The notes under the pieces: generated by a model | Told to the model about the DNA's origin: nothing | Database searches by the model: none | Seen by the model: only the letters and a program-made list of their open reading frames with translations | Shown here: piece after piece, positions 26,145-54,014 of the stretch | Position numbering within the stretch: position 1 is the first letter of the stretch | Layout of the letters: each line of letters begins with the position of its first letter | Program-made: the position numbers and the translations under genes | Source of the DNA: Croceimicrobium hydrocarbonivorans | GTDB taxonomy: Bacteria > Bacteroidota > Bacteroidia > Flavobacteriales > Schleiferiaceae | Direction: 5' to 3' | Length of the DNA stretch: 64,000 nucleotides | Assembly: GCF_014524565.1 (NCBI RefSeq) | Contig: NZ_CP060139.1 | Location: 2,487,501 to 2,551,500 of the forward strand

Positions 26145-26435
26145 TCAATGCTTTTGGCGCAATTCGTGATTTTCTTCTAACACTTTCACGTACTTATCCT
26201 TTAATTCTTGCACTTCAGGAAGTGGCAAAGCTTCAGGATGAATGTCTGTTTTGTCAATAAATAGGCGCGGATCAACCTTCAAGATTTTAGAAATTTCCTC
26301 TAAAGTTTGAACAGTTAAAGTTTCTCTCTCTATGGATTGCCATAAACCAGTACGGCTAACATTTAATTTTTTGGCAATTTGATTCAGGTTAAATCCTTGT
26401 GATTCAATCTGATGCTTTAGGAGTTTGTAGTTCAT
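26145..26435 (-). CDS. HTH (XRE-type) phage repressor
   Basis: 96 residues. A helix-turn-helix covers about 17-37 (LNQIAKKLNVSRTGLWQSIE), in an XRE/Cro-CI-like domain of about 60 residues, followed by a Pro-rich linker and a C-terminal coiled coil (about 72-96) that could dimerise it. It is transcribed leftward from a region shared with the rightward early genes, and a TGTAGA-N4-TCTACT palindrome lies between. It is the best candidate for the regulator of all such palindromes in the phage. No peptidase domain is present, so induction would not be by LexA-type self-cleavage. Confidence 0.75.
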   Translation of the reverse strand: MNYKLLKHQIESQGFNLNQIAKKLNVSRTGLWQSIERETLTVQTLEEISKILKVDPRLFIDKTDIHPEALPLPEVQELKDKYVKVLEENHELRQKH

Positions 26436-26477: not shown

Positions 26478-26493
26478 TGTAGAAAATTCTACT
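26478..26493. promoter_or_regulatory. Operator between repressor and early genes: TGTAGA-AAAT-TCTACT
   Basis: A palindrome of the same family as the sites in the leftward arm, in the 103-base divergent region between repressor and early operon. TACTAATATTG to its right resembles a rightward -7 box. Confidence 0.6.
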
Positions 26494-31301: not shown

Positions 31302-31545
31302 AGAAACTACAAATCCACCGGTTGTAAAGCATGTGCATACCCTAGTACAGTGTAAAAGCATTAAAGATTTTGTGGATTTTAAGAAATCCGCTAAAATTTT
31401 GAATATGCCCTACTGGATTCGGACCAAAGAAGGGGTGATGTGGTTTGAGTTTGTGCGTGCGGAAACTTCAAAAGAGGACCTTCTGGCAATGATTAAGCAG
31501 GGCATTATTTACATTTTAGAAAGGCATCGTAAAGGTTATGAATAG
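31282..31545 (+). CDS. 87-residue hypothetical protein, copy 2
   Basis: Same translation as 3376-3639, again starting inside the end of the helicase gene. Confidence 0.6.
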   Translation: MMMCHSKETTNPPVVKHVHTLVQCKSIKDFVDFKKSAKILNMPYWIRTKEGVMWFEFVRAETSKEDLLAMIKQGIIYILERHRKGYE

Positions 31546-32407
31546 GAGGTTAACAGTTGGGGGCCTCTTCTCCGGAGACGGTGGTTTTGAACTTGCTGCT
31601 CAGTGGGCAGGTCTTACTCCAGTTTGGAGCAACGACTTTAACAAGCATTGTTGCGCCAAACTCAGACGAAACTTTGGGCACAGGATAATTGAAAAGGATA
31701 TAAACGAAATCGACCCTAATGAACTCGAATCAGTCGACATTATTTGCGGAGGAGACCCCTGCCAGCCAAGCTCATTGGCAGGCTTGGGAAAAGGCACGGA
31801 AGATCACCGCTACAACTGGCCAGCGAAATTTAGAATTGTACGGGCCTTACACCCATCTTTCGTCCTTAACGAAAACGTTGTTGGAACGATTACCAACGGC
31901 ATCCTTGACCGGAAGATTGATGATTTGGAAAGTGAAGGCTACACCTGCCAAGCGTACACTATACCAGCTGAAGCCGTTGGAGCGCTCCATCGTCGGGACA
32001 GAGTTTGGCTTGTCGCTTATGACCCCAACCGAAAGCTGTCAGAGGCCCGACAATCCGGCGAAAAGAACAAGCATAGCCCATCAAAAGAAGTTCGCCAACC
32101 TATCGAGCCAGTTGATCTTTGGCCTTTTGATACCTACCCCGACAGTCAACGACTCCACCAACAGCACAATGCCACCCAGTCAAAAGTATTGTCGGAAGGG
32201 GTATCAAGGTACTTTGGTTTCGGCCCTTCTGCACATGGGAATATCTCCAGGGACATTATTGAATCCGGAATTATTCGAATGCTTAATGGGCTACCCGAAG
32301 GGATGGACTATGCCGATAGAAACAACCGAATAGCCGAAATGGGAAATGCAATTGTTCCTCAGTTGGCCTACGAGTTTTTCTTATGGATGAAATCAATATT
32401 GAAGTGA
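31538..32407 (+). CDS. C5 cytosine methyltransferase, copy 2
   Basis: Same translation as 3632-4501, all catalytic motifs present. Confidence 0.92.
   Translation: MNRRLTVGGLFSGDGGFELAAQWAGLTPVWSNDFNKHCCAKLRRNFGHRIIEKDINEIDPNELESVDIICGGDPCQPSSLAGLGKGTEDHRYNWPAKFRIVRALHPSFVLNENVVGTITNGILDRKIDDLESEGYTCQAYTIPAEAVGALHRRDRVWLVAYDPNRKLSEARQSGEKNKHSPSKEVRQPIEPVDLWPFDTYPDSQRLHQQHNATQSKVLSEGVSRYFGFGPSAHGNISRDIIESGIIRMLNGLPEGMDYADRNNRIAEMGNAIVPQLAYEFFLWMKSILK
31719..32333 (+). CDS. Nested +1-frame ORF in methyltransferase, copy 2
   Basis: Same translation as 3813-4427. Neither copy carries an indel here, so both frames stay open together. Confidence 0.4.
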   Translation: MNSNQSTLFAEETPASQAHWQAWEKARKITATTGQRNLELYGPYTHLSSLTKTLLERLPTASLTGRLMIWKVKATPAKRTLYQLKPLERSIVGTEFGLSLMTPTESCQRPDNPAKRTSIAHQKKFANLSSQLIFGLLIPTPTVNDSTNSTMPPSQKYCRKGYQGTLVSALLHMGISPGTLLNPELFECLMGYPKGWTMPIETTE

Positions 32408-35141: not shown

Positions 35142-35485
35142 GTGAAGAACTGGTAGATAAAACATTAAGTATTGAGGCACTTAATCAGTTAAATTCAAAG
35201 GAAGAAATTTTACCTGAGTTTGATCCTACAAATCCCGTTAGTTGGTTTAGTGCTTTGGATGATGAAGATGCAGAGAAAGCCGAACAGGCTTTGGGAACCA
35301 TGCTTACTAATCGATTCCAAGAAGGCCAACAATCGATTTTTGAAGGCTACTTGTGCTTAAAGGCCACCCCAGAAGTTATTGAATTAGTGGAGCGATTAAT
35401 TCAAGAGCGTATTGATAGTCCAGATTACCCGGAAAGCGATCGTATTCAATGCCTGGTAACTATGATTAATGCCATTCGCCAGTAA
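35138..35485 (+). CDS. 115-residue acidic protein, copy 2
   Basis: Same translation as 7230-7577. Confidence 0.65.
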   Translation: MSEELVDKTLSIEALNQLNSKEEILPEFDPTNPVSWFSALDDEDAEKAEQALGTMLTNRFQEGQQSIFEGYLCLKATPEVIELVERLIQERIDSPDYPESDRIQCLVTMINAIRQ

Positions 35486-36321
35486 TGACTACAGAGTATC
35501 GCGAACTTACTATAGAGGATGTAACCTCGGCCTTTTCAGATAAAGGACGTCGAACGGGTGCTAAGCTCCAATCACAGCAAAATGAAACTGCTGAGACAAA
35601 GACTGAGGGCTCAGAGGCTAAACCTTCGGATTTCAGCAACTTTCTTCATGCTGAGGGAAAGCCCATTGATGAGAATGAGGGTATAAATACTAGTGATAAA
35701 TCAGATCCAAAAGATGGGCCTGATGCTAAATCGCGTAGAAGTGCTCGATTAGTAACTAGCCTAATAAACTTATTTGTAAGTCTTTCCTGTCAAGCTTATT
35801 CCGGTATGCCAAATCGGGATATGTTCAAATTTGATCCGGAAGAAAAGACAGAAGTAGAAGATGCGTTTGCAGAATATTTTGAAACTATTGATGGTGATAT
35901 CAGTCCCGGGTGGATGGTAATTATTGTATTAGCAATGATCTTACTGCCAAAGGCTTACGAAGCCCACAAATACAGACAAATAAATCGTAAAAGTGCCGCT
36001 AATAGAAAGCAAAGGGAGAAAGAAGAAACTGATATTGAGGAGGCCCATGTATTAGAAGAAGTCGATGAGCATACTATTGTAGACTTAGAGGAGAAAATGC
36101 ATGAATGGAACCGAGAGGCCAATGAAAAAGGAGCACCAATTTTATTCAGAGTAGATCCAGTTCCAACCGGACTATGTAAATACCATTGGTATTTTGAAGA
36201 TCGCCAAATTTCGGCTACAAGGGGAGACTATGCCGATCAAAACGCGGCTCTCAGTTGGGCGCGTCAAATGAGTATTTACAGTAAAAAGGGGATGAACAAA
36301 GATTGGATTACTAATTTATAG
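35485..36321 (+). CDS. 278-residue membrane protein, copy 2
   Basis: Same translation as 7577-8413. Confidence 0.7.
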   Translation: MTTEYRELTIEDVTSAFSDKGRRTGAKLQSQQNETAETKTEGSEAKPSDFSNFLHAEGKPIDENEGINTSDKSDPKDGPDAKSRRSARLVTSLINLFVSLSCQAYSGMPNRDMFKFDPEEKTEVEDAFAEYFETIDGDISPGWMVIIVLAMILLPKAYEAHKYRQINRKSAANRKQREKEETDIEEAHVLEEVDEHTIVDLEEKMHEWNREANEKGAPILFRVDPVPTGLCKYHWYFEDRQISATRGDYADQNAALSWARQMSIYSKKGMNKDWITNL

Positions 36322-36371
36322 CTGCGCGGGCTTTTTCGCGAACGTTCTTTGTCCGTATTATTTCGGCTTTC

Positions 36372-36402
36372 GGCCCGGGAATGAAGGCCCCGGGCCTTTT
36401 TT
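36372..36402 (+). terminator. Terminator before ATPase block, copy 2
   Basis: Same GGCCCGGG/CCCGGGCC hairpin as 8464-8494. Confidence 0.8.
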
Positions 36403-36419
36403 AACTAAACACTAAAACA

Positions 36420-36551
36420 ATGCATTACGTCCTTACATGGTTAGATTCTCATCCATCTATTTGGATTGTTGTTGCCATCATTGGTTTTATGCTTTGGTGT
36501 TATTTTAATTCAAATGGTCCAGGCAATGGGTATAGGATTCAGCATAGATGA
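36420..36551 (+). CDS. 43-residue membrane protein, copy 2
   Basis: Same product as 8512-8643. Confidence 0.6.
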   Translation: MHYVLTWLDSHPSIWIVVAIIGFMLWCYFNSNGPGNGYRIQHR

Positions 36552-37125
36552 TGAAGAGGCTAAAATAGCCTTGTTTGCCGGCGTTCGGAAAACTGGTAAA
36601 TCCACCAAGCAAAAAGAGCTCACAATGGCATGGCTAAAATCTGGTGGACGTGCTGTAGTAATTCCTTCCTCTAAATACGAGCGAACTTTTCGATCGGTAC
36701 CAAGAATTAAGCCGGAAAATATTCCCAGTCTTCCTCCAGGAAAACTTGCAGCCATTGACTGTACGGATCAGCATGAATTTGGAGAGGTATTAAAATACTG
36801 TGATGACATTCTAATAGTATGCGATGACATTAAAGGCTATTTACCTAGCAATGGACTAACTAAAGAAGTGCGTAATGCCTTTATAAGTTCGCGCCATCGA
36901 AATGTAAATATGACCATTGCAATGCATGGGCTTACGCATGCGCCTCCAGAGTTCTATGATTTCGTAAACCTTATTTTCTTGTTTCGAACAAAAGACAATT
37001 TGAATCGTCATCGAGATAAGTTTCAAGACCTGGAGAAAATGATTGAAGTACAACGGCAGGTAAATGAAATTGCGCATCAAGAAAAAAATAAGTACTATTT
37101 TAAGATCATTGAATATGCTGAGTAA
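36526..37125 (+). CDS. Packaging ATPase, copy 2
   Basis: Same translation as 8618-9217; Walker A and B intact. Confidence 0.7.
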   Translation: MGIGFSIDDEEAKIALFAGVRKTGKSTKQKELTMAWLKSGGRAVVIPSSKYERTFRSVPRIKPENIPSLPPGKLAAIDCTDQHEFGEVLKYCDDILIVCDDIKGYLPSNGLTKEVRNAFISSRHRNVNMTIAMHGLTHAPPEFYDFVNLIFLFRTKDNLNRHRDKFQDLEKMIEVQRQVNEIAHQEKNKYYFKIIEYAE

Positions 37126-37188
37126 CAGAGCTAGGGGGCAACAAAAAGCACTGTCAGCGTCGTTAATAGTAAATTTAAACCATAATCT

Positions 37189-37380
37189 ATGAGTACAGAA
37201 GACCTCGACCCACTAGCTAAACTATCTCCTCAGGTTGCAATGCAAAGTGTAGAAAAAGCGATGATCTGCTTAGTTGAATCCCCTACCTTCGTAGGCATGA
37301 ATGCCGCTGAACGCTTCGATGTGATGGATGGATTAGTATTATTGAAAAATCACTACTTATCCATCATTGAAAAGCCTTAG
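37189..37380 (+). CDS. 63-residue hypothetical protein, copy 2
   Basis: Same translation as 9281-9472. Confidence 0.6.
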   Translation: MSTEDLDPLAKLSPQVAMQSVEKAMICLVESPTFVGMNAAERFDVMDGLVLLKNHYLSIIEKP

Positions 37381-37400
37381 ATAGCTTAAACTTTAGAAAA

Positions 37401-37432
37401 AAGCGGTTGATTTTTGATCAGCCGCTTTTTTT
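37401..37432 (+). terminator. Terminator after ATPase transcript, copy 2
   Basis: Same 11-pair hairpin as 9493-9524. Confidence 0.85.
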
Positions 37433-37462
37433 GTTAATTGGTAGGAATAAAATTTCTTGATT

Positions 37463-37831
37463 ATGTTGAAGTTAAAAGTTTTGCCTATTGCTATCGTCTT
37501 CATGGCATTTTTAAATAGCTGTTCTCAAAGAATCGCTGATCTTACTACGGTGTCTACTCGCGATTTAGATGATCGTAAAACCCATGTGCTTTTAGAAAGG
37601 TACGTGAAGGGAACAGATAGCAGCATTGATAATATACTGTTTATTGGTCCTTGGAGCTCCCCTGATATTGAAGATGCTATTGATGATGCAGTTCGAGAGG
37701 TACCAGGCGGTGAGTATATGAAGAACGTCGTTATTAGAGAACGTCGATGGGGTTTTTTGTTAATGTCTTTTCGCACATTTACTGTAGAAGGTGATGTATA
37801 TGGCATTGCTCCGTCCGAAAAATCAAATTGA
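37463..37831 (+). CDS. Phage-encoded lipoprotein, copy 2
   Basis: Same translation as 9555-9923. Confidence 0.65.
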   Translation: MLKLKVLPIAIVFMAFLNSCSQRIADLTTVSTRDLDDRKTHVLLERYVKGTDSSIDNILFIGPWSSPDIEDAIDDAVREVPGGEYMKNVVIRERRWGFLLMSFRTFTVEGDVYGIAPSEKSN

Positions 37832-37923
37832 TAAAGTGCCCACTTTAGCTAAAACCTTGTTAATCTGTATAAATAGCCTAATTATTTCTATCAATTTAAC
37901 TGATTCATTTACGAGGAAATAAT

Positions 37924-37969
37924 TCTGAATGACTTTCGAGAAAAGTTTAATGCAAACGAAGCATTCAGA
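37924..37969 (+). promoter_or_regulatory. Capsid leader hairpin, copy 2
   Basis: Same TCTGAATG/CATTCAGA pairing as 10016-10061. Confidence 0.4.
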
Positions 37970-37971
37970 TT

Positions 37972-38601
37972 ATGAAAATTCAAAAACCTAGTAAGGCTCT
38001 TGCGGTGGAAGTAATGCCATCTGCTCAATATGAGCAAGCTTACAAACAAGCTAGTATTGGTCGCCAGGTAAATAACCGGCCCATTAGTAATATTGGTGCA
38101 GTAGCGCAAGGTGGTGGCCTTGGTTTTGGTTCCGATATTATGCCGGAAACCATTACGGCCAATTATGCTAATGAGACTGCAACCCCGGTTACAGTTATGT
38201 TATTTGATCCACTGGGCATTAATGCCGGTATTTTGGGAGGCACTTATGTAGATCCAACTTCTTGGAGTGGCGGACTGTCTAATGCCTTAATTAAGGAGTT
38301 TTTCAAACATCGGCCTTCTAGTTTCAAAGGTTTCAACTATCGCGTTACCACCGGTAGTGCCGCACAATTTGATCAGGCCGTGAAATGGCATAAGGGTCAA
38401 ATTGATGGTTCTTCCGTTACTAGACCTTTAAACATTGGCCAGTATCAGCGTAATACTCAGCAAAACACGCTGATTCAAACTATCGATACGCAGTTTTATA
38501 TCGATCAGTTCTCAGCCATGACTTTTGTTGTAGGTGCAAACACTACCATTGCAGTTGACTTTGTCTTTGGCGAAGTGCTGAACTCAGTAGTGGGCGGCTA
38601 A
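37972..38601 (+). CDS. Candidate major capsid protein, copy 2
   Basis: Same translation as 10064-10693. Confidence 0.5.
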   Translation: MKIQKPSKALAVEVMPSAQYEQAYKQASIGRQVNNRPISNIGAVAQGGGLGFGSDIMPETITANYANETATPVTVMLFDPLGINAGILGGTYVDPTSWSGGLSNALIKEFFKHRPSSFKGFNYRVTTGSAAQFDQAVKWHKGQIDGSSVTRPLNIGQYQRNTQQNTLIQTIDTQFYIDQFSAMTFVVGANTTIAVDFVFGEVLNSVVGG

Positions 38602-38611
38602 TATTTCTCAT

Positions 38612-38647
38612 CCGGACCTTGAGCAATGCTTAAGGGTCCGGCCTTTT
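38612..38647 (+). terminator. Terminator after candidate capsid gene, copy 2
   Basis: Same hairpin as 10704-10739. Confidence 0.8.
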
Positions 38648-38669
38648 GTTTTACGAGAAAATTAGACCT

Positions 38670-39191
38670 ATGCAACTTACACCACAAGAATTATCCATAC
38701 GCTTGGCTGAAGAGCCATTGCTATTTGCAAAAGTAGCCACTGACAATAATCCTGAAGATATCAGTCAAAAACTGATGGATGAGGGGATTATTAATGGTCC
38801 AGCACGAAACCCTGAATTGCTCGACTTAATTCTGCAAGTAGCACCTCAAATGAATCCCTCTCAATTGATATTCATTTTTGACGTTCCTTTTAGTTATAAT
38901 CCAGATAATGAGGCTAGTGATGCGGGTTTTTTGGAGACATTTAGTGTGGTTGCTGATCGGAAAGGCTTAACTCCGGATAAAGCTACTTGGTCCACGCTTT
39001 ACCCGACTTCAGCCGCAAGTTTGGGAGAGGCGCAAAGTGATTTTGTAGAAGGCCTAGAATATCCTCCGATCACCAGCACCCAAAACTTACCACTCAGTCG
39101 CTGTCAGGTATGTGCAATCCGAAGAGTTAAAACCCTGCTATTGGTAGGCATAGCTCTTTTATTAGTAATCATCCTTATCAAGAAGTGGTAA
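38670..39191 (+). CDS. 173-residue tail-anchored protein, copy 2
   Basis: Same product as 10762-11283. Confidence 0.65.
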   Translation: MQLTPQELSIRLAEEPLLFAKVATDNNPEDISQKLMDEGIINGPARNPELLDLILQVAPQMNPSQLIFIFDVPFSYNPDNEASDAGFLETFSVVADRKGLTPDKATWSTLYPTSAASLGEAQSDFVEGLEYPPITSTQNLPLSRCQVCAIRRVKTLLLVGIALLLVIILIKKW

Positions 39192-39192
39192 A

Positions 39193-39477
39193 ATGAACTT
39201 AGATCCTAATTCAACAGAAGTTCCCGGATCCAATCCTACTGAAGTGGTTGATCAAACCGCTACCGGAAAGCAGAGTAGCTTTAACTGGAACGCATTTTTT
39301 AATACTATGGGAACAACAGCAACGGGTTTATTTGGAAATGGTGGAAATGCTGCCAATCGTAATCCAAGTGGGCCTCCATTTGTTTTTGAATCCAAGAGTA
39401 ATTCAACTCTATGGATTGTGCTCATTGTGCTGGTTTTAGCCGCAGTATTAGCTTTTTACCTAATTAAAAAGCGATAG
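39193..39477 (+). CDS. 94-residue membrane protein, copy 2
   Basis: Same translation as 11285-11569. Confidence 0.65.
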   Translation: MNLDPNSTEVPGSNPTEVVDQTATGKQSSFNWNAFFNTMGTTATGLFGNGGNAANRNPSGPPFVFESKSNSTLWIVLIVLVLAAVLAFYLIKKR

Positions 39478-39479
39478 AG

Positions 39480-39665
39480 GTGGATCCAGCTTCAGCACAA
39501 ATGATTGGCCAAGGCCTGGGCTCAGCTACTGAGCAACTTAACAATACTAATGCGCACGCCTATGTGGTACCCAATAGCTATTCCCAAATTCCATTCTATT
39601 TGACGGTAGTAGTGGTTTTTGCGGTAATAGCTGTTGTGGGTTTCGCGCTTTTTAGAAAAAAGTAA
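39480..39665 (+). CDS. 61-residue membrane protein, copy 2
   Basis: Same translation as 11572-11757, GTG start. Confidence 0.6.
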   Translation: MDPASAQMIGQGLGSATEQLNNTNAHAYVVPNSYSQIPFYLTVVVVFAVIAVVGFALFRKK

Positions 39666-39666
39666 A

Positions 39667-39915
39667 ATGGCGAATTGGTTATCATTTGGGGCAGGATGTC
39701 ATACGGTTTGGGGCTCAGTAACCCGAGGTGCCGAGTGTGCAGAGGAAAACCGTAGGGATGAAATTTACGGCGAATTTAAAGCCTATGATCAGCAATTATT
39801 TGACCGAAGTATAAAGGAACGCGAGTTTCTTTTTGGGCAATATCAAGAGATTTTAACAATGCTTGTGCTTTTTGTTTTAGGTGCAGCATTTCTAATCTAT
39901 TATTTACGAGACTAA
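39667..39915 (+). CDS. 82-residue membrane protein, copy 2
   Basis: Same product as 11759-12007. Confidence 0.6.
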   Translation: MANWLSFGAGCHTVWGSVTRGAECAEENRRDEIYGEFKAYDQQLFDRSIKEREFLFGQYQEILTMLVLFVLGAAFLIYYLRD

Positions 39916-40478
39916 TGGACCAAAAGGCATCACGTTTATTATACCTGGTAATTGCTTTGGCCTTAGCAGCTTTTGGTTATTACTTCTTTTTTCTACCGGC
40001 TCGAAAAAGAGCTGCAGAATTAAAAATTGTGGAAGCGCAGGCTGAAGGAATGTCTGCGGATGCTGCTACTCAGTTAGCAAATCTGGAGGTGATGCAAGAG
40101 CAGGCAAAATTAGCTAGGAAGGCGAATCAAACTGAAAAAGCCCGCAGAAATGCATTGGTTTGGTTTGAAACGGAATATAATCCTCGTTTGCGCAATTGGC
40201 TTCGAGCATGGTTATGGACAAAGCCAACCGGCAAAGATTATTATCGCATTCATGATCAATCCTACATGAATTGGCTAAACAAAAATTTAGCAGAGGCTGG
40301 AGTAAAACGCGTCAAAGATGGATCATTAGGAGCCCTCCCATTAGGATGGACTTTAACCACGAATGGACAAAAACCGGGAAAAGAAATTTTAGTGGTGCCA
40401 ACGCCCACTGGCAATATTTCTGTGGTAAATCCTCAAACGAATTACCCTCAAATTCAATTAGGGGTAACACCAAAATAA
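39915..40478 (+). CDS. 187-residue anchored protein, copy 2
   Basis: Same translation as 12007-12570. Confidence 0.65.
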   Translation: MDQKASRLLYLVIALALAAFGYYFFFLPARKRAAELKIVEAQAEGMSADAATQLANLEVMQEQAKLARKANQTEKARRNALVWFETEYNPRLRNWLRAWLWTKPTGKDYYRIHDQSYMNWLNKNLAEAGVKRVKDGSLGALPLGWTLTTNGQKPGKEILVVPTPTGNISVVNPQTNYPQIQLGVTPK

Positions 40479-41545: not shown

Positions 41546-42091
41546 GTGAAGCAATCTAAGGTATTGCAATATTCAGCAATTGGAGCCGGAGCGGTAGCGC
41601 TTGGGCTTTTTCTGTTCTACTACTTACGCAAAAACTTTCCATTACCGGGGTCTTTACTTTTTGCCTCCAGAGATATTAAAAACTACATCAAGCAGGAAGA
41701 AAAATTGCGGTTAAATGCATACCGCGACCCTGGAGGCGTTTGGACTATTGGCTATGGTCATACTTCAGATTCTAAATTTCCGGTGAATGCAAATTCCAGA
41801 ATTACCCAAAAAGAGGCTAATTTAATTTTTGAGCATGATGTAGATGAGGCCGAACACTGGGTTAGAGAGCGATTAAAGCGATCCATTACACAAAACCAAT
41901 TTGATGCTTTAGTGTCTCACACCTTTAATACTGGGGGTAGTACCAGGTTAATGAAATTGGTGAATGAAAATGCGCATCCTGATGATATTTATCACTGGTT
42001 TACTTCTCGATATACTTCCCAAAATGGTCAATTACTAGCTGGATTATTAACCCGCCGACGTGAAGAGGCAGAAATATTTTTTGCCTCGTGA
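41546..42091 (+). CDS. GH24 lysozyme, copy 2
   Basis: Same translation as 13638-14183. Confidence 0.85.
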   Translation: MKQSKVLQYSAIGAGAVALGLFLFYYLRKNFPLPGSLLFASRDIKNYIKQEEKLRLNAYRDPGGVWTIGYGHTSDSKFPVNANSRITQKEANLIFEHDVDEAEHWVRERLKRSITQNQFDALVSHTFNTGGSTRLMKLVNENAHPDDIYHWFTSRYTSQNGQLLAGLLTRRREEAEIFFAS

Positions 42092-45000
42092 AACGATTCT
42101 CAGAAGTCAAAGAAATTGATCGCTCCAAGATCATTGTAGATCCTAAACTTTTTCAAGGTAGGCAATCCGAATTTTCTGAAGATACAGTTAAGGCAATTGT
42201 ATCAAAAGGCGCTTATGACCGTAGTGCTGAGCCTATCATATTGTGGTATGATGCGGAAAGAGAAAAGTATGTTGTAATTTCTGGACATTCTCGGTTTGAA
42301 GCCTCCGAAAGGCTTTACAAATCAGGAAAGCAACCGGATTTGAAAACAATGCCGGCTAAACTTTTCTTAGGTGATTTAGATGATGCTATCGATTATGCTA
42401 CTTTAGAAAGTAATCGAGGGAGTACGGAGGAAGGACTAGTGTCCGATATTCAAGCTTATCGTAGGGCTGTTGCCAAAGGTTTTAATCGTGAAAAATTACT
42501 GTCAATATTTAAGCCCGAAAGTAAACTGAATAAGCTTAAAGATTTAAGCTATTTAAATCCCAAAGGCCAATTTGTTGAGGAATTGAGCAAATCTAGCGCT
42601 CGTTCTTTTCCCTATTTAGAAAGAAATTCGAGGTGGGTAGGTCAGTTGCGTAAAGTGCTGCCTCAACTTACCGATAGCCATGAACAGGAGCTTTTTAATT
42701 ATTTCTATAAGGGTAAGCCGTCTGCTTTAAAGCAAGGCAAAGATCAGTTTTTTGATTTGGTTGATAAACGAGTAAACCGCATTGATTTTGATTCTAATAA
42801 AGCTTTGAACCTTGAAAATAGGATCAGCGCAAATGCCTTGACTGATCCTATAACAGAGCAGTTAAAGGACTTAGAAAAGGATATTACTGAATTTCAAAAG
42901 CGCATTCAAGCTAAGCGACAAAATATTATTAGAGCTAAGGAAGCAAAAGTTCCGGATGCTGAAAAAATCATTTCTACTCTTCAAAAAGAAATTACCCAGT
43001 ACGAAGCGGCAATTCTTCGTAAAATGGAAGATCAAAATAAATTGCGTCAGCAAAAGGGAAAAATTGAGCGGGAAACGGTGGTTGATTTATTTAGTCAATC
43101 TGAGGAAATTCCTGCAAAGAAAAAACCATCTGAACAGATCAAAGAAAAAACTGAAAGGTTAACTGATCGCGAATATCGCGAAAGCCAAGTTCCTAAAATT
43201 GTAGAAAAGGGAGATTTAGCAAACCTAATTTACGATGGCCAGAAGTACTTTGGTTTAAAGGTGAAAGAAGTGGATTTCTGGAAGGAAATTTTTTCAGTAT
43301 TGATCGTTGGGTTTACATTTTAGAATTACCATCAGGAAAGACAGTTCGAGAAGATAATAAAGCCAATGTTGAAAAGTTTGATCCAAGTAAAAACAAAAAA
43401 GGAGAGCAGGAAAATGCATATCCTTTACTGGATCCAACTGGTCGAATGTATAAAACTGCAATTTCTGCCTGGTATGCTTCAAGTATGTCTCCGGATCGTC
43501 GTGGTCGTTCCTTTATGGCTGAGCATGAAAGGTATTTAAATGAAATACAGCAAGAACTTATTGAACTAGCCGAAAAGCATGATACTAAAGAGTTAGTTAC
43601 CCCTGCTTTTAATAGATATTTAGAAAAATATCGCAGTTATGCGGCTGATTATTTACATCGTCAAAGTGGAATTGCAAGCTCCATGGTTACCGGTCCAGCA
43701 AATTTCCCAACGGCCCGAAATCGAAAGCGAGGTGATGTTCAAGAACGCAAAGTAAAAGAATGGAATCGATGGGATTCTAAGGCCTTAGCTCGAATCAAGA
43801 AAGAACTCATAAATGAGCCACTTCCAACTGATAACCCAACTGAGGAGCTGAGTCGGCAAAAAGAAAAACTTCAAGCGCTAAAAGATCTTCAGATAAACTA
43901 TAGAGCGATTAATGCCGCTTATCGAAAGTTTAAAAAGGACCCATCATCATTAGATAGCCAAGACTTATCCGATGTGGTGAAAGAAAGGATACGAAATTGG
44001 AAACCGGACTATAGTTATGAAACGGCTCCTATTCAGCCCTATCAAATGAGCAATAATAATGCGAACATCAAGCGAGTTGAGCAGCGCATTAAGGAGTTAG
44101 AAGTTAAAAGTAAGATTGCGGAATCAGGGAAAACACCAGAAGTTAAGTTTGATGGTGGTGTAGTCGTGTTAAACGCATTAGATAATCGTATTCAGATATT
44201 CTTTGATGATAAGCCGGATGCCAATACCAGGGATGAGCTTAAAAAAAGTGGATTTAAATGGGCTCCCAGTAAGAAGGCATGGCAGCGCATGGTTACCGAT
44301 AATGCCATTTTTAAAACAGCCAAGCTTTCTTTTATTAAAAGTGAAGGTCCTTGGGAAGATTTATTTAAGGTAAACCAAAGCAAAAAGAAAACACTAAATC
44401 CTATTTCTGATCCAAAGAAAAAGGAATGGAAAGTAGATTTAAAAGCTTTGGCCGCTTCTATCCGAAACCTATTGAATTTAGGCGGTGGAAATGCCGTAAA
44501 AGTTAGTACCAAAACTTCAGGAGAAAACCGATCTGATCATCACATCTTTATTGAGATGCGAGACGGTTCAAGCTTTGATAAGCGCACTAGAAATATTTTG
44601 GAGAGCTGGCCACTGGATAAAGGACAGGTCAAAGGTTATGGGCTAAAGATTTACACGGGCCAGGCTATGCAGGTTCAGGAAGCTATTAAGGAGGTTTCAG
44701 CGGCTGATGATTTTAAAGAGATTATTGGCTGTCCTCCAATGAAGGACGGTAAACGGTTAATTGATGCTGAAAGCATTCGCAAATTAGAATCCTGTATAGC
44801 CAACTTACCCCAAACAAAAAAGCAACATACCAATGAGGCAGGAGAATACCAGGCCGATCGCTTAAAGCTGCATGCCAAAATAATAGGCGAGTTTAAGAAG
44901 GATGCAAAATGTACCGGTGGTAAAAAGCCAATTGCAATTCTTACGGGCGGAGCACCTGGAGCAGGTAAAAGCACCTTTTTGAAAAACTTTGCTCCTTGGC

Positions 45001-45830
45001 TTTTATCTGATAGTGTTTATCACATTGACGCAGATGAAGTAAGGGCAAAATTGCCTGAATATAAGGGATGGAATGCAAGTGCCACGCATGAGGAAACTAG
45101 CGATATCACTAAAAAACTGATTCGTGAAATTGGCAAGCCTTGTGAATATGACCTTATTTATGATGGCACCATGAATAAGGCCAAAAAGTATGGGCCCTTA
45201 GTAACTCAACTTAAGGATTTAGGGTACCAGGTATTTGTGATTTATCTCCAAGTTCCAAAGGAGCTAAGCAAACAAAGGGTATTAGATCGATACAAAACTT
45301 CAGGGCGTTATGTTCCGATGTCGGTAATAGATGAAATTTACGAAAATGGCCTTGAAGCGTATGATGAAGTAATTAAGAGCGCGGATGGCTTTATTCGAGT
45401 GAATGGTGAAACCCAAGAGATTGTTGAAAAGGGAGGAATGCAGCTTCCGAAAAGGCGAAAGTTAGCTAATCAACCATCTAAAAGTGAGCCTTCAAAAGCA
45501 GATCGAGATTCGATAGGTACTATTCGTAAAGAAATCAATGAATACTTGATTTTATCAGAAAACCAAGTGAGGAATTTTGCGGAAAAGATTAATCGCTTAA
45601 GAAAAGTCAATAGCCAAAAAATAGATGGATCTCAGATTAATAAAAAGGTACTGCCTCTTACGGCTGACGGCCTATTCCGATGGGCAAAAAATCCCGGGGC
45701 ATACGATTTACCTGGAATAGATGCTCCAGATGAAACAAAACCAACCATCAAACCGAGAAAAATCAAAAAGTTAGAACCCGCTAATTCTTCCTCTGGAGGC
45801 TTTTGGCAACAATTATGGAATGGTAAATGA
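42088..45830 (+). pseudogene. Polyvalent protein, frameshifted in copy 2
   Basis: One G is missing near 43281 (CTGGAAGG here, CTGGGAAGG in copy 1). The first frame ends at 43323 after 411 codons; the rest, including the zeta-type kinase, is open to 45830 with a possible restart at 43446. Intact version and domain description at 14180-17923. Confidence 0.8.
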
Positions 45831-47010: not shown

Positions 47011-47393
47011 TGGCGCAATTATTTAAAATACTAGCTCCAATTTTATCTACTAGTGAATCTGCCGCTAATCTTTATCGACAAGCTGTAATTGCAGCCGGTG
47101 GCCAGGTAGAAAGCATTACTTGCTATCAAGCAAGTATTAATGCTTTAGATGCGGTAGATATACAAATGCTGACGACATCTTTAGCTTATAAAAGAGCAGT
47201 TGAAACCGATGGTGGGTCTGTAGAAAGTCCATTCTGTTATAGACAAAATTTAATTGCTTTCAATTCGGTTGAAATTCAATCTTTAGCAGCATTACAAGCA
47301 TATCAGGCCGCAGTAGAATTAGATGGTGGATCCTTAGAAAGTCCTTTCTGCTATAGGCAAGGGATTATTGAACTTAATAATGTGAATTTATAA
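47010..47393 (+). CDS. Three-repeat protein, copy 2
   Basis: Same translation as 19103-19486. Confidence 0.65.
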   Translation: MAQLFKILAPILSTSESAANLYRQAVIAAGGQVESITCYQASINALDAVDIQMLTTSLAYKRAVETDGGSVESPFCYRQNLIAFNSVEIQSLAALQAYQAAVELDGGSLESPFCYRQGIIELNNVNL

Positions 47394-48612
47394 TGGCAAC
47401 GGCATTTGACAGCGCAAATATTTTGATTGGAAAAGGTGGGGGTTTTAAGGCTGGTACCCTTTATGGAGAAAGCCCAAGCTCGGGATTAGGGACATTAGTA
47501 GATTTTGATGCTGTTCAAAATACTTCTAATGCTAGTCGCGTCAATAGTACGGGGCAAATTGAATTTGTGCCCGCTAATACGCCCCGATGGTGTTGGGCGG
47601 AATTAGGGAACTGTCCAAGCCTATTGGATGAACCTGATCGGACAAATTTTGCCACGGATAATAGCACCCCTGCAAATTGGTATAATTCCACTTTAACGCC
47701 TGCTGAGCCAGGCGCATTTGAACTAAACAATAGTTTTGACTGGGGCCTATATACCCAAAACGGCACTACCAATAATTTAGGATTTGTCTATGGGGGTTTT
47801 TCACCAGGCCAAAACTGGGCAATTAGTTTGTATGTGAAAATATCAGCTAGTGGGGATTATATCGGGGTAAGAGAAACCGGGAATGGTATTGGGGTAGTGC
47901 GTATTTCTACCGAAACTGTAACTACAGCCGGAGGAGGAATTTCTTCCGTAAAGGTTTACGATACTGTAAACGATGACATTAAACGAGTAGTAATTCTAGG
48001 GACTACTTTGGGCGCAAATAATTTATTCCTACAGTTACCCAGTAGTGGGGCAATTCTGGAGTTGATGACGGTAATACGTTGCAGTTAACGGCTTTTCAAT
48101 TAGAAGCTGGCACATATGCAACTAGCGTTATTAGAACAACCGGCTTGGCGCGTACCCGAAATGCGGATGTAGTTTCATCTAGTGCAATTGGAGCCTTATT
48201 GGAGGACTTAGAAGGGAATTTTTACCTAGAAGCCACGGTCTTTGATGATACGGTAAGTAATGTAATCGAGCTTTCCCAAAGTGGAGCTGAATCTACAAAC
48301 GCCATTCGCATTGATATTAATGGTACTGGAATTGAGGGGACTTGTGTTGGTTCCGGAGGTACTACTTCTATTTCTGGAGCTCCGGCCGTAGCCGGTACCT
48401 ACAATAAAGTTTGTTTCAACTATGGGGCAAGTGGTATGAGCTTGCATGTAGACGGAAGCACGGAAGGCAGCGCATCAAATGGAGGTCTGCCTAGTACTTT
48501 GAATCAGTGGCGTTTTACGGATGGGACAAATCCATTTAGGGGCAGGATCCGGGTTTGCGCGTATAACCCGAATAAGCTAAATGCCACCGAATCTAACAAT
48601 CTAACAACATAA
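47393..48612 (+). pseudogene. Receptor-binding spike/fibre protein, frameshifted in copy 2
   Basis: Here the N-terminal 225 codons are whole, covering the point broken in copy 1, but one G is missing near 48048 (TGGGGCAA against TGGGGGCAA in copy 1). The frame stops at 48088 and the LamG-like C-terminal part reads from 48079. Domain description at 19486-20704. Confidence 0.7.
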
Positions 48613-50188: not shown

Positions 50189-50866
50189 TTAGGCGTTTTG
50201 GATGGCGTCGATTAAATCAGCTTTATAAGCGCCATAAATTTGAATCACTACCGGATCTAACTTTTGACCTTCAATGCCTTTTTGCCATAGGTCTTCAATC
50301 ATTTTAATAATCTCTTTTTTCGGACGTCGGTAAAAATGCAGATTACAAATAATGTCTGATTTGAATTGGAGAATACTATGAATGAGAAACTCATTGGATA
50401 GATCAATATCTGCAAGAACATTATCAGTGCACTGATTAATAACTTTCTCCGTTATTAGTCTTGCCAACTGCTTGTGCTGATTGTTTTGAAGGTCCACTCC
50501 AAAGCCTAAATGCCCTAATCGACTATCTATATCCCGAGGCTTTTTTGTGCCCCGTTTTCCTTTGATACTAACCCAATTAAACTCTGGTGCTAAAAAGGGA
50601 TAAAGCCAAACGGGAATAAGGCATATTTCTGGATTACTCAAATCTTTAAATCCTAGGTCAATGCGCTCTTCGCGACTAAGGTCATTCGGATCAATCGAAA
50701 AATCACCTTCAGACTCCTGAACCAAGGAAGGGATTTTAGAAATTCGTTCAAACCAATGCTCGGGCTGGCCATGGGCATAAAGTAAGGCCTCAATAGATTC
50801 GTTGAGAATAAATTCACGAATGATCTTACATTTTTCAAAAGTGCTTTGGTAACTCATATTAAGCAA
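50189..50866 (-). CDS. 225-residue unknown protein of the leftward arm
   Basis: Intact only in copy 2. A second in-frame ATG (MSYQ) three codons in is an equally good start and would reduce the overlap with the upstream stop. Soluble and mainly helical, with an acidic LSREERIDLGFKDL segment, a central basic KGKRGTKKPRD loop and a conserved-looking C-terminal helix with KKEIIKMIEDLWQKG. No family recognised. It is the last gene of the arm that carries the counter-defence candidates, so a defence or counter-defence role deserves testing. Confidence 0.65.
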   Translation of the reverse strand: MLNMSYQSTFEKCKIIREFILNESIEALLYAHGQPEHWFERISKIPSLVQESEGDFSIDPNDLSREERIDLGFKDLSNPEICLIPVWLYPFLAPEFNWVSIKGKRGTKKPRDIDSRLGHLGFGVDLQNNQHKQLARLITEKVINQCTDNVLADIDLSNEFLIHSILQFKSDIICNLHFYRRPKKEIIKMIEDLWQKGIEGQKLDPVVIQIYGAYKADLIDAIQNA

Positions 50867-51164
50867 TAATATTTTGGGAAAATTCGATTGTAAACCAGCG
50901 AGAAAAACTGATGTACCAGCATTCGAGAGGCTTGGAATAAGCCACCCGGTTTTCTTTCTTTTTAAAGCGGTAGCTCATTCTGTAACATTCTAATTCGCTG
51001 CCAAAGAATGTCACAGTAGGGTCTAAGGGAAAAACCTCGCACTTCATGCCATATTCTTTGGTTAATCGATTTTGGAGGTCCAGTACGGTTATAAGCATGG
51101 GCTCTTTGGTAAAAGGGCAGATGGGGTGTTTTGTCGCACGCATAAATAGTAGTTTAATATTCAT
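50859..51164 (-). CDS. 101-residue unknown protein of the leftward arm
   Basis: The longer frame begins at 51371, but the sensible start is the ATG at 51164 (MNIKLLF) or 51143 (MRATKH). The product contains CPFTKEPMLITV, a Lys/Arg-rich centre and an aromatic C-terminal half (WYISFSRWF). It overlaps the 225-residue gene by eight bases, so the two are probably co-translated. An imperfect operator half (TATAGAAAAATCTGC) lies at 51169-51183, just upstream. No family recognised. Confidence 0.55.
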   Translation of the reverse strand: MNIKLLFMRATKHPICPFTKEPMLITVLDLQNRLTKEYGMKCEVFPLDPTVTFFGSELECYRMSYRFKKKENRVAYSKPLECWYISFSRWFTIEFSQNIIA

Positions 51165-51225
51165 CAAATATAGAAAAATCTGCAAAAAGAAAAGAAAAAT
51201 ATTCGAAAGTGATTTTTTTGGGCAT

Positions 51226-51251
51226 AAAAAAAGCCCGGGAAAATCCCGAGC
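51226..51251 (-). terminator. Terminator of exported-protein gene, copy 2
   Basis: Same hairpin as 23314-23339. Confidence 0.75.
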
Positions 51252-51276
51252 TTTCAACCTAATAAATGTATCCAGG

Positions 51277-51582
51277 TTAATAAAAATAGGCGCCACCCCA
51301 TCGAAAGGGCTGCGGCTGACGATGCTTATAGCTACCCACTGGCGCGAAATCCTTTCCGGAAGGTCCAACATTGATCACCGGCTCACACAATACGGCTGCT
51401 ACCTGTAGGCTTTCCACCTGGTAGAAATCAACCGCTTCGATCTTTAGATCAATAGCCGTGAAAGATTCCGTTGCATCCACTTCGCAAAAAATGGGCGCTT
51501 CTGCATCTTCAATAACCTCTGCTAAGCTGACTACTGGCGCAAACGCTAAGCCCGCAAGCACTAAAACAAGATGTTTTTTCAT
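51277..51582 (-). CDS. Small exported protein, copy 2
   Basis: Same translation as 23365-23670. Confidence 0.65.
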   Translation of the reverse strand: MKKHLVLVLAGLAFAPVVSLAEVIEDAEAPIFCEVDATESFTAIDLKIEAVDFYQVESLQVAAVLCEPVINVGPSGKDFAPVGSYKHRQPQPFRWGGAYFY

Positions 51583-51622
51583 GTTTGAGATTTAGATTAG
51601 ACAAAAACGAGCTTTAAATATA

Positions 51623-51638
51623 TGTAGAATAATCTACA
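51623..51638. promoter_or_regulatory. Operator-like palindrome, copy 2 (exported-protein gene)
   Basis: TGTAGA-ATAA-TCTACA as at 23710-23725. Confidence 0.6.
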
Positions 51639-51962
51639 CTAATCACTAGGCAAAACTTCCCAATCTTTTGCCAATGAATCAGGTACAGTTGGACACCAAC
51701 TGGTGATCAAGTTGCTAGAATTAACTAAAGCAAATTGATCTTGATAATAAATTGCGTCAATTTGATTATTGGAGAAATCAAATCGTTTTTGAAACTCCTT
51801 TTTTACCGATTCGGGCAAAGATTGCATTTTAGGTACTATTTCTTTCTTGATTATAGAAGGAACTTGTCTAAATACAAACTTTCCGCTATCCGCCCAGGAT
51901 TTGCGTCGGGCCATTTTACCCTGTTCTAATGCATTGATTGCATCGCCAAAACTTAAAGTCAT
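51639..51962 (-). CDS. DUF2829 / Tad2-like protein, copy 2
   Basis: Same translation as 23726-24049. Confidence 0.75.
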   Translation of the reverse strand: MTLSFGDAINALEQGKMARRKSWADSGKFVFRQVPSIIKKEIVPKMQSLPESVKKEFQKRFDFSNNQIDAIYYQDQFALVNSSNLITSWCPTVPDSLAKDWEVLPSD

Positions 51963-51990
51963 AATTCAATATTTATATTACTTGTCGAAA

Positions 51991-52006
51991 TATAGAAAAA
52001 TCTACA
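51991..52006. promoter_or_regulatory. Operator-like palindrome, copy 2 (Tad2-like gene)
   Basis: TATAGA-AAAA-TCTACA as at 24078-24093. Confidence 0.55.
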
Positions 52007-52020
52007 CTTTAAAAAGTTTC

Positions 52021-52275
52021 TTATTGAATCGCTTCAAAGTTGTCTTTGAAATATTGCTCGGCCACTAGCCATTGATCTTTATAGTTTTTCGGGTTTCGAG
52101 CAATCATATCTCCCAGCTTAGGAGATCCATGATTGATATCTTCTGGAGAAATTGAAACCTGAATGCCACCAGGAAGAACTAAAGCATGTTTAAGCTTGAA
52201 TAGGTCAATATGCTCTTGGGTAACTTCGCGTAATTCAGCGATTTGTTTACGACGGTATTTTTTAAACTCTGACAT
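52021..52275 (-). CDS. 84-residue conserved phage protein
   Basis: Intact only in copy 2. The start FKKYRRKQIAELREVT and the end GSPKLGDMIARNPKN...DQWLVAEQYFKDNFE are patterns I recognise from many small phage proteins of otherwise unrelated tailed phages, often near Acb2-like genes. Function is unknown to me. The signature GSPxxGDMIARNPKN-xDQWLVAxxYF suggests a small binding domain. It sits between the Acb2-like and Tad2-like genes with no operator of its own, so it is probably co-transcribed from the Acb2-like promoter. Confidence 0.75.
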   Translation of the reverse strand: MSEFKKYRRKQIAELREVTQEHIDLFKLKHALVLPGGIQVSISPEDINHGSPKLGDMIARNPKNYKDQWLVAEQYFKDNFEAIQ

Positions 52276-52304
52276 TGGTACTAATTAAAATGAACAAATA
52301 GATT

Positions 52305-52631
52305 TTAAGATTGAGCTTCTTGGTATTTGGCTCTTTTACTCCGGTTGGTTTCACTTTCATAAAGCCACCAAAGCGCTTCCCTTAATTTTTGTTCTGCAAT
52401 GAAATTTGAACTACACTGAAAATGAACTTGAAGATTCAAATATCTTAGACGGCTGAGTAAAGCTTTTAGCACTTCTTCCTCAGTAGTGCCATTTTGGATC
52501 GTCTTTAAAGGCCCATTAGAGTTAGGTAGTTCATCTCCAGGGCAGGATTGTTCGACAAAAACTAGACACTGATTGGATTTACCTTCATAGTTTTCGAGGT
52601 TGTATTCATGTCCCCATCGTTCTTCAGTCAT
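52305..52631 (-). CDS. Acb2/Tad1-hairpin-like protein (candidate cyclic-nucleotide sponge)
   Basis: 108 residues, intact only in copy 2. After a variable N-terminus, NGPLKTIQNGTTEEEVLKALLSRL and then FIAEQKLREALWWLYES match the family whose consensus is roughly NGPxKExGxNGxTxEALLxxxIxRL and AxxKLxEALxWLxxRT. That family includes Acb2, which binds cyclic di- and trinucleotides and blocks CBASS signalling, and is related to Tad1. The usual Cys-Arg-Glu before the last helix is replaced by CSSN here, and the final RxARGVEGT is replaced by a Lys/Arg tail. Assignment by recognition; ligand untested. Confidence 0.7.
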   Translation of the reverse strand: MTEERWGHEYNLENYEGKSNQCLVFVEQSCPGDELPNSNGPLKTIQNGTTEEEVLKALLSRLRYLNLQVHFQCSSNFIAEQKLREALWWLYESETNRSKRAKYQEAQS

Positions 52632-52653: not shown

Positions 52654-52673
52654 CAAATGTAGAAAAATCTACC
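52654..52673 (-). promoter_or_regulatory. Operator overlapping -7 box of the Acb2-like gene
   Basis: TGTAGA-AAAA-TCTACC at 52658-52673, with TACATTTG (minus strand, 52654-52661) as -7 box. Same as 24739-24758. No good -33 TTTG is visible at 19 bases upstream. Confidence 0.6.
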
Positions 52674-52689
52674 TCATTGATATTTAATT

Positions 52690-53808
52690 CTACTCAAAGG
52701 CTTCAATTTCCGGGTTGGCCCCTTTCCCCCGGGCGGCATATTGATCGGTTTGGCTTACATCATAATGGCGGGCTTGGTCGCGTACTAAAATGGAAGGAAT
52801 ACCCGCCCGTAGCATATCAGTAATGCCCGTATCCTTCAGGGAATAAAATTGATAAGCCTTTAAAAAGCCGAGTTCCTGACGAAGTTTGGTCCATTGATCA
52901 CTAATTTTTTTGGGGCTTAAAGCCTTGGGGCTTGGCCTAAAATCGGGACCGGTAAAAAAGTGCTGATCGGACGCATTTTTTAGATAGATACGCAAAACCG
53001 TTGCCACGGTTTTAGGGATGGTAATCGTATCATCTTTGCGGTTCTTAGAATACTTGGCCGGAATAAGCACCGTGCAACGCTCCAGGTCAAAGTGATGCAC
53101 GCGAAGCTTAGTAATTTCTGTACGTCGGATAAAAAGATAATATTCTACTAAACAAAGCACATAGTAACCGTAATTGGTCTTTTCTAGGTGCTTGAAAATT
53201 CGAAGCCGTTCTGAAGGGGGAATGATTTTTCGTTTTTTCTCACTCTCTGGGATTTTCCGCAGGCCCAAGGCTGGATTTACATAGAGGTAGCCGGCCTGAA
53301 TCATCCATTCGCAAAAATTGTGAAGAAAGCCTAGGTAATTATTGCGGGTCCGCGCTGATCGTCCTAAATCATGGTAGACAAAGTCTAAAAATGTGATAAT
53401 GGCTTCTCGCTGAAAGCCCACACAATTGGTATGCTCCCAATGGGGAATATGCTTTTCAATCATCGATAGATACGACCGGTATGAGCGCAAAGTATCAGCT
53501 CTTACGGTGCCCTCTTCAAATCGTTTTTCCTTTTCGCGTAAAAACTCGCGGGCCGCATCCGGTAATAAACTCTGCGATCGTGAAGCTAATTCCTCTGCCA
53601 GAGGATTCCAGCCCCGGGCCAATCGCTCATTTAACTGCCGGCACATTTCCTTTCCCTGGCGCCGGCGCTCACTAATCTTTTCAATGCGATTCCATTTAAT
53701 GCGTCGCCTGGAGAGTTTCCCCGTGCGCGGATCTATCACATAAAAAGCAATATACCAGGTGGCCCCTTCGTGGAGCTTGGCAGGATAGTAAGGTAAAACG
53801 GTAGACAT
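52690..53808 (-). CDS. Tyrosine integrase
   Basis: 372 residues, intact only in copy 2. An N-terminal Arm-type DNA-binding part (WYIAFYVIDPRTGKL), a SAM-like core-binding domain (about 80-185) and a catalytic domain. The first catalytic Arg is in IRRTEITKLR (about residue 232). The usual HxxR box is YSLK (322-325, with Lys for Arg, a variant I recall from Bacteroidota integrases of the SLKDTGITDM type). His348 follows in ARHYD, and the nucleophile is Tyr357 in DQYA. It lies next to the attachment core and inserts the phage into tRNA-fMet. Confidence 0.9.
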   Translation of the reverse strand: MSTVLPYYPAKLHEGATWYIAFYVIDPRTGKLSRRRIKWNRIEKISERRRQGKEMCRQLNERLARGWNPLAEELASRSQSLLPDAAREFLREKEKRFEEGTVRADTLRSYRSYLSMIEKHIPHWEHTNCVGFQREAIITFLDFVYHDLGRSARTRNNYLGFLHNFCEWMIQAGYLYVNPALGLRKIPESEKKRKIIPPSERLRIFKHLEKTNYGYYVLCLVEYYLFIRRTEITKLRVHHFDLERCTVLIPAKYSKNRKDDTITIPKTVATVLRIYLKNASDQHFFTGPDFRPSPKALSPKKISDQWTKLRQELGFLKAYQFYSLKDTGITDMLRAGIPSILVRDQARHYDVSQTDQYAARGKGANPEIEAFE

Positions 53809-53932: not shown

Positions 53933-53941
53933 TGATGGTAG

Positions 53942-54014
<73 letters not shown>

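Follow-up and report, generated by a model that had tools for sequence, protein, structure and literature searches.

Tad1 is a hexamer that binds glycocyclic ADP-ribose (gcADPR) and cyclic nucleotides, and Tad2 is a tetramer that binds TIR signals. According to one report, both families sequester gcADPR as well as the cyclic oligonucleotides of cyclic oligonucleotide-based antiphage signalling systems (CBASS) (PMC12657218). Two others describe binding of gcADPR by the SPO1 Tad2 and of histidine-ADP-ribose (His-ADPR) by MoTad2 of a Myroides prophage (PMC13299392), and no binding of 3'3'-cGAMP by the SPO1 protein (PMC11722364). Since the reported ligands differ within the family, membership of the family does not fix the ligand. 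Here we describe a 64,000-nucleotide stretch of the Croceimicrobium hydrocarbonivorans genome (the window, part of one 4,035,598-bp contig) that encodes members of both families, together with four less understood proteins, in a cassette adjoining a prophage integrase (Table 1). The open reading frames (ORFs) lie where an earlier note on this DNA had placed them, on the minus strand, forming one leftward cassette with two sponge-family proteins. We consider it reasonably probable that this is a prophage counter-defence cassette, repressed in the lysogen and switched on at infection or induction. All positions are window coordinates unless marked genome, and the cassette described is that of prophage copy 2.

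The 108-amino-acid (aa) protein belongs to the Tad1 family, as judged from its relatives and predicted fold. It had been read as a match to the Acb2/Tad1 hairpin (PF24729). Taken alone, the protein matches no Pfam family at E ≤ 0.1, PF24729 included (best DUF7864, E 0.21), and the assignment was recovered through its relatives: 53 of the 56 scanned alignment members match PF24729 at that threshold, with the window protein among those that do not. Such a single-protein match is a detection aid and does not define Tad1. As a single query the protein matched phrog_2428 (2.6e-7) and reached CmTad1 at E 0.0088 only; by tblastn it found a hypothetical protein of Bacillus phage 035JT004 (9e-4) and the annotated Tad1 of Bacillus phage SBSphiJ7 (2e-2). 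An alignment-based scan yielded 111 relatives, of which 80 were kept; those aligned over nearly their full length reach 45% identity and merge by degrees with the Tad1 proteins of Bacillus. A profile of 55 relatives, with the window protein as first row (56 members), gave seven matches in the PDB. Six are Tad1 proteins, including CmTad1 (8kbb, 2.1e-25), 8kbe (1.6e-19) and cbTad1 (7uav, 2e-19), and the seventh is gp184 of 8y6v (2.7e-7).

Structural prediction is consistent with this placement. The AlphaFold2 model of the protein (predicted local distance difference test, pLDDT, 80.5), whose input alignment included Tad1 relatives, retrieved Tad1 chains at all of Foldseek ranks 1-20 (probability 0.99-1.00, E 1.2e-3 to 2.8e-2), and a VIA comparison gave Z 8.7 over 88 residues versus 8.3 for an unrelated helical row. 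Together with the profile and the SBSphiJ7 match, the Foldseek result led us to drop the name Acb2 in favour of Tad1; the close chains listed are Tad1, and missing Acb2 rows are no proof against Acb2. Compared with the described proteins (SBSphiJ7 Tad1, cbTad1 7uav/8smd and CmTad1 8kbb), the window protein shares the C-terminal helical hairpin profile, the predicted fold and, within the 56-member alignment, G48, E52, R61, C73, N76 and R97. It differs in its length, 108 aa versus 115-132 residues in the Foldseek Tad1 chains, in escaping PF24729 when searched alone, and in the substitutions T81Q, R93S and T94E, at positions where the family majority is T (51/56), R (52/56) and T (51/56). These deviations fall in the conserved C-terminal helix motif. 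At E ≤ 0.001 the protein occurred in one of the 99 genomes searched, the source genome itself, and single-sequence scans of viral contigs returned no close relatives of it, of the 107-aa protein or of the 225-aa protein.

From its sequence, the 107-aa protein is a member of the Tad2 family. Its identification as DUF2829/Tad2 was borne out by PF11195 (4.3e-15, 56.4 bits versus a cut-off of 25), and it aligns over its full length with the solved Tad2 structures SptTad2 (8wjd, 5e-12) and 8kbi (3.3e-10), carrying an inserted segment of the kind seen in both. With SPO1 Gp34.65 and MoTad2, these are its closest described counterparts. Unlike them, it has WADSG in place of the WNGKG loop (N24A, G25D and K26S, with W23 and G27 kept). 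N stands at position 24 in 38 of 51 members, and A in the window protein alone among the 51.

The host encodes a putative TIR-based immune locus, broadly of the type that such sponges counter. In type IV Thoeris, N7-cADPR made by a TIR protein is reported to activate a caspase-like protease (PMC12847820). The host locus, type IV Thoeris-like, likewise brings TIR and caspase-like genes together. In order, it comprises a ThsB_TIR protein of 154 aa (2.9e-14), a TIR_2 protein of 163 aa (2.4e-8; PADLOC ThsB 9.6e-46), a caspase-domain protein of 323 aa (Peptidase_C14, 1.5e-19) and a second ThsB_TIR protein of 123 aa (2.2e-7). The row and the cassette form a natural pair, an action of the cassette on that row being putative. 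Upstream of the row lies a PHP/AAA ATPase gene (PADLOC Ppl, 3.6e-29). For CBASS, the host gave no match to SMODS, the one family searched.

A sponge role for the Tad1 and Tad2 proteins is likely, and the signal may differ from the known ones, conserved positions deviating in both proteins. The substitutions in Tad1 and Tad2 could represent altered or lost ligand binding, either change alone sufficing, and the deviations in both proteins weigh against a working counter-defence cassette. It is possible, though we rather doubt it, that they reflect a switch from gcADPR to another ligand, such as the N7-cADPR of type IV (TIR-caspase) Thoeris or His-ADPR. The deviations affect the Tad1 C-terminal helix motif and the Tad2 loop with the scaffold retained, the host has its TIR-caspase row, and ligands vary within the Tad2 family, as the Myroides prophage protein reportedly illustrates (PMC13299392). 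Against such a change, the lysogen's own TIR locus is not necessarily what selected the cassette, and ligand contact at the substituted positions is presumed from cbTad1, in which N92, R109 and R113 line the gcADPR pocket; by position these correspond to N76, S93 and R97 of the window protein. That one or both proteins have decayed or been repurposed and no longer bind immune signals is unlikely. Near-invariant residues are lost, which nearly all aligned relatives (up to 45% identity) keep; however, the frames of copy 2 are intact, the scaffold residues are kept and a palindrome stands ahead of each presumed unit.

These palindromes are what most extends the earlier note, and their sequence and placement suggest that a single regulator governs both the early region and the cassette. 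A 14-bp palindrome, GTAGA-N4-TCTAC or near, precedes all four presumed leftward units, two copies being imperfect, and another copy stands beside the gene of a 96-aa helix-turn-helix (HTH) regulator. This candidate repressor matches phrog_8 (transcriptional regulator, 1.3e-5) and phrog_3 (repressor, 8.4e-5); in Pfam, HTH_8 (4.1e-5) and MobC (6.3e-5) lie barely over their cut-offs and HTH_3 under. TAnnTTTG is the -7 box consensus of Bacteroidota, and the downstream half of the palindrome overlaps it exactly at two sites and at 7/8 positions at one (boxes TACATTTG, TATATTTG and TATATTTC). The dyad layout of GTAGA-N4-TCTAC is like that of 434-type operators. In Acr-Aca operons, too, counter-defence genes come with an HTH regulator of the phage and with operators that are inverted repeats. 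Unlike in those, the regulator gene here lies at the opposite end of the integrated prophage, and every presumed unit has a site of its own.

The palindrome is also enriched. The window holds five perfect copies versus 0.05 in shuffles, belonging to three distinct sites, two of which are present in both prophage copies. Genome-wide (4.04 Mb) there are nine distinct perfect sites, of which the two prophage copies hold six; from the rate in the rest of the genome, 0.02 would be expected per prophage unit (post hoc Poisson 1.5e-6). Several points weigh against a shared operator. The pattern was picked after these sites had been seen, and a laxer pattern, GTAGANNNNTCTAY, with one half-site base relaxed, has 29 strand-wise matches in the genome versus 18 for a reversed control; of the 20 distinct sites of the laxer pattern, 8 lie in the prophages. 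The -7 consensus is exact at two of the five sites only, inspection by eye showed no -33 element, and the pairing of regulator and palindrome was examined in this one genome. The box of the exported-protein gene, TACATATA, fits the consensus at 6/8 positions only, and just upstream of the integrase no copy was found at ≤3 mismatches. The palindrome might instead be a site for an activator or host factor, or part of a phage-specific promoter, which would suit its overlap with the presumed -7 region and the putative nature of regulator binding. The operator-like dyad and its placement, with the HTH gene on one side and a divergent gene on the other, speak for a repressor, and we hold these other roles to be improbable.

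Table 1 Positions of the cassette genes, palindromes and associated features (window coordinates unless marked genome)
Feature	Position	Strand	Evidence or remark
Tad1-family protein, 108 aa, probable sponge	52305..52631	-	phrog_2428; profile versus PDB Tad1; AlphaFold2 and Foldseek
84-aa conserved phage protein, unannotated family	52021..52275	-	IMG/VR relatives, genome contigs, AlphaFold2
Tad2-family protein, 107 aa	51639..51962	-	PF11195; SptTad2 and 8kbi matches
101-aa predicted exported protein	51277..51582	-	Signal-peptide-like N-terminus by eye
100-aa frame, inside longer open frame	50859..51161	-	phrog_15567 at E 0.27 only
225-aa protein	50189..50866 from TTG (ATG at 50857)	-	N-terminal phrog_6726 domain
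Tyrosine integrase	52690..53808	-	PF00589 1.1e-11; phrog_1 2.6e-33
Palindrome GTAGATTTTTCTAC	52659..52672	-	Upstream of tad1-like gene; overlaps TACATTTG
Palindrome, 1 mismatch	51992..52005	-	Upstream of tad2-like gene; overlaps TATATTTC
Palindrome GTAGATTATTCTAC, perfect half-sites	51624..51637	-	Upstream of exported-protein gene; box TACATATA
Palindrome, 2 mismatches	51170..51183	-	Upstream of 100-aa/225-aa pair; overlaps TATATTTG
Palindrome GTAGAATTTTCTAC	26479..26492	.	Between HTH regulator gene and divergent gene
Candidate phage repressor (96-aa HTH regulator)	26145..26435	-	PHROG and Pfam matches
att core	53939..53961	.	3' end of tRNA-Met (tRNA 53941-54014)
Tandem prophage pair	1-53961 (genome 2485610-2541461)		Right end in tRNA-Met
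Type IV Thoeris-like row of host genes (TIR-TIR-caspase-TIR)	genome 3635375-3637796 (L277 6376-8797)		Pfam/PADLOC matches

In the working that we propose, the Tad1- and Tad2-family proteins would bind and sequester the nucleotide signals of TIR (Thoeris) or CD-NTase (CBASS) sensors, and the four co-located proteins would be made from the same cassette. The HTH regulator would repress the cassette in the lysogen through the palindromes at the presumed promoters, which would leave host immunity armed and spare the cost of constitutive sponges; infection or induction would then release it. The position of the cassette is also compatible with lysogenic conversion, that is, with expression from the prophage in the service of the lysogen, through superinfection exclusion or a surface change brought about by the exported protein. 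It lies between lysis-type genes (endolysin, phrog_894) and the integrase, is read from the other strand than the genes before it, and includes a predicted exported protein. Nevertheless, the palindrome of the presumed promoters recurs next to the HTH regulator gene, and sponges made constitutively could disable the TIR locus of the host itself; we judge lysogenic conversion rather unlikely. A cost of sponges is described in one study, in which CbTad1 or ColiTad1 co-expressed with the Panoptes genes in E. coli set off Panoptes and inhibited colony formation, and SptTad2 had a slight effect (PMC12657218). By analogy, such a response would be one more reason to keep the sponges silent in the lysogen.

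Between the two sponge genes lies a conserved 84-aa phage protein, as had been proposed, and it proved to be widespread: the family has at least 295 IMG/VR relatives (best 80 of 295 kept) and 11 loci in genome contigs. R9, S43, D46, M57, R60, N61, P62, D67, W69 and Y75 are invariant across 75 rows. No Pfam family was matched by more than one of the 75 members, and the AlphaFold2 model (pLDDT 93.5) found no confident fold in the PDB; weak rows resembling an oligonucleotide/oligosaccharide-binding (OB) fold (IF-1, E 0.13; VIA Z 3.4) were taken as no match. One contig (L021, 4971-5603) carries the family fused to a Tad2 domain in an uninterrupted 211-aa ORF. The closest known arrangement to the cassette is that of Tenacibaculum phage Gundel_1, whose genes 107-109 are consecutive: a PF24729 hairpin gene (27.4 bits versus 27) and a PF11195 Tad2 gene, directly followed by an 84-aa-family gene. 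Its gene order is different, its hairpin gene is not of the long Tad1 type and gene 109 carries an extra PF21825 domain.

Elsewhere the association is occasional. Searching 96 loci with our own profiles, we detected the 84-aa gene in 94; at 7 of the 94, four of them from a single lineage, a sponge gene lies within 1.6 kb. In those four contigs, all of one lineage, the hairpin gene lies at most about 0.3 kb away; Tad2 is 0.5 kb away in L104 and 1.5 kb away in L062; in L104 it is a 57-aa frame from stop to stop and covers only Pfam model positions 39-73. Of 73 records with the 84-aa family searched with Pfam, 7 contain PF24729 (5/23 and 2/50) and 3 contain PF11195 (1/23 and 2/50); two further matches to each in the 73 records lie 1.5 to ~28 kb from the 84-aa gene. 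For phrog_2428 the count was 0/23, the controls likewise being without signal. Conversely, the 84-aa gene occurs in 2 of 75 Tad2 loci, one being the L021 fusion contig again, and none of 80 fetched Tad1-family loci (flank ≤5 kb) has an 84-aa, Tad2 or separate acb2 gene. Fisher's test of 84-aa against Tad1 anchors gave p 0.016, uncorrected for lineage and with an acb2 profile seeded with three proteins found adjoining the 84-aa family. Two points tell against a close link to sponges. Most 84-aa loci have no sponge neighbour within the flank examined, and copies in Mariniflexile and other bacterial contigs, by eye without evident phage neighbours, speak against a purely counter-defence function. 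In two Mariniflexile species, a lone 84-aa gene follows the same 385-aa gene on large contigs, with differing downstream genes (L106 and L107, 5001-5219). Guilt by association, invoked by the earlier note for this protein, is moderately supported by the fusion and the three-gene cluster; its strong form was toned down given the 7/94 loci and the chromosomal singletons.

The same argument had been extended to the 101- and 225-aa proteins. The 101-aa protein matched no family, and neither it nor the 100-aa protein had a phage tblastn match; both are tied to the cassette by shared location and shared palindrome alone. The presumed -7 box overlaps the ATG of the 100-aa frame, and its translation start may therefore lie downstream. 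For the 225-aa protein there is more: its N-terminal part matches phrog_6726 (1.3e-19), with homologues in 118 phage records by tblastn, some near NAD-salvage or Nudix genes. In the jumbo Pectobacterium phage CBB (L270, 2498-2869) the homologue precedes the genes for a nicotinamide-nucleotide adenylyltransferase (NMN adenylyltransferase) and PnuC, and in one Klebsiella (L269, 1471-1854) and one Cronobacter phage examined it follows a Nudix hydrolase gene. This neighbourhood is suggestive, no more, of NAD-related counter-defence. The label 'anti-CBASS protein acb1', attached to phrog_6726 proteins in 3 of the 25 phage rows listed, received no support from a PDB profile search to E 10, in which both matches were Caskin-2, and is not thereby disproved.

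Besides the palindromes and the host TIR-caspase row, the tandem state of the prophage goes beyond what the earlier note had described. Window positions 1-26043 equal 27909-53961 at 99.9% identity, and the repeat reaches leftward, in a further stretch of chromosome, to genome ~2485610; a prophage unit of ~27.9 kb is thus present twice in tandem. A 23-bp attachment (att) core occurs three times, once at each outer end and once in between; the one at the right end differs from the other two at two bases. As a result of the duplication the cassette occurs twice in the window, the other copy at ~22.4-24.7 kb. The prophage copies differ at 23 listed places, mainly by single-base indels, which interrupt frames of either copy. 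Between 22.4 and 25.6 kb, ten single bases of copy 2 are missing from copy 1, where the frames of the integrase and of the 84-, 100- and 225-aa proteins are disrupted or cut short. These differences may be assembly errors.

Among the other prophage genes, a DNA methyltransferase lies at 31538-32407 (phrog_363, 1.8e-53) and a 794-aa protein with a Zeta_toxin domain (1.3e-31) at 42088-45830 and 14180-17923; by coordinates, the latter forms in copy 1 a single 1247-aa frame with the upstream 411-aa frame. Neither Pfam nor PHROG gave a family for five proteins within 35485-40478. PHROG matches to 'minor head' and 'tail', weak or partial, fall in 43446-45830 and 47393-48085, and neither a terminase nor a major capsid protein was recognised in the subset of prophage proteins scanned.

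A bolder form of the proposal can be put together, which we find improbable as a whole. The prophage immunity repressor would silence a multi-gene sponge cassette through operators at every cassette promoter, so that the TIR-caspase Thoeris of the lysogen stays armed against other phages. At induction, the cassette would disarm the same class of immunity with ligand-shifted Tad1 and Tad2 and with the 84-aa family, elsewhere fused to Tad2, as a third nucleotide-handling partner. What the locus offers is a divergent Tad1 next to a divergent Tad2 and, as a candidate, a common off-switch for both, in a bacterium that has a TIR-caspase row. If the proposed working is true, it would become testable how the lysogen of a temperate phage is spared harm by the phage's own anti-immune genes. 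The 84-aa family is a concrete new candidate.

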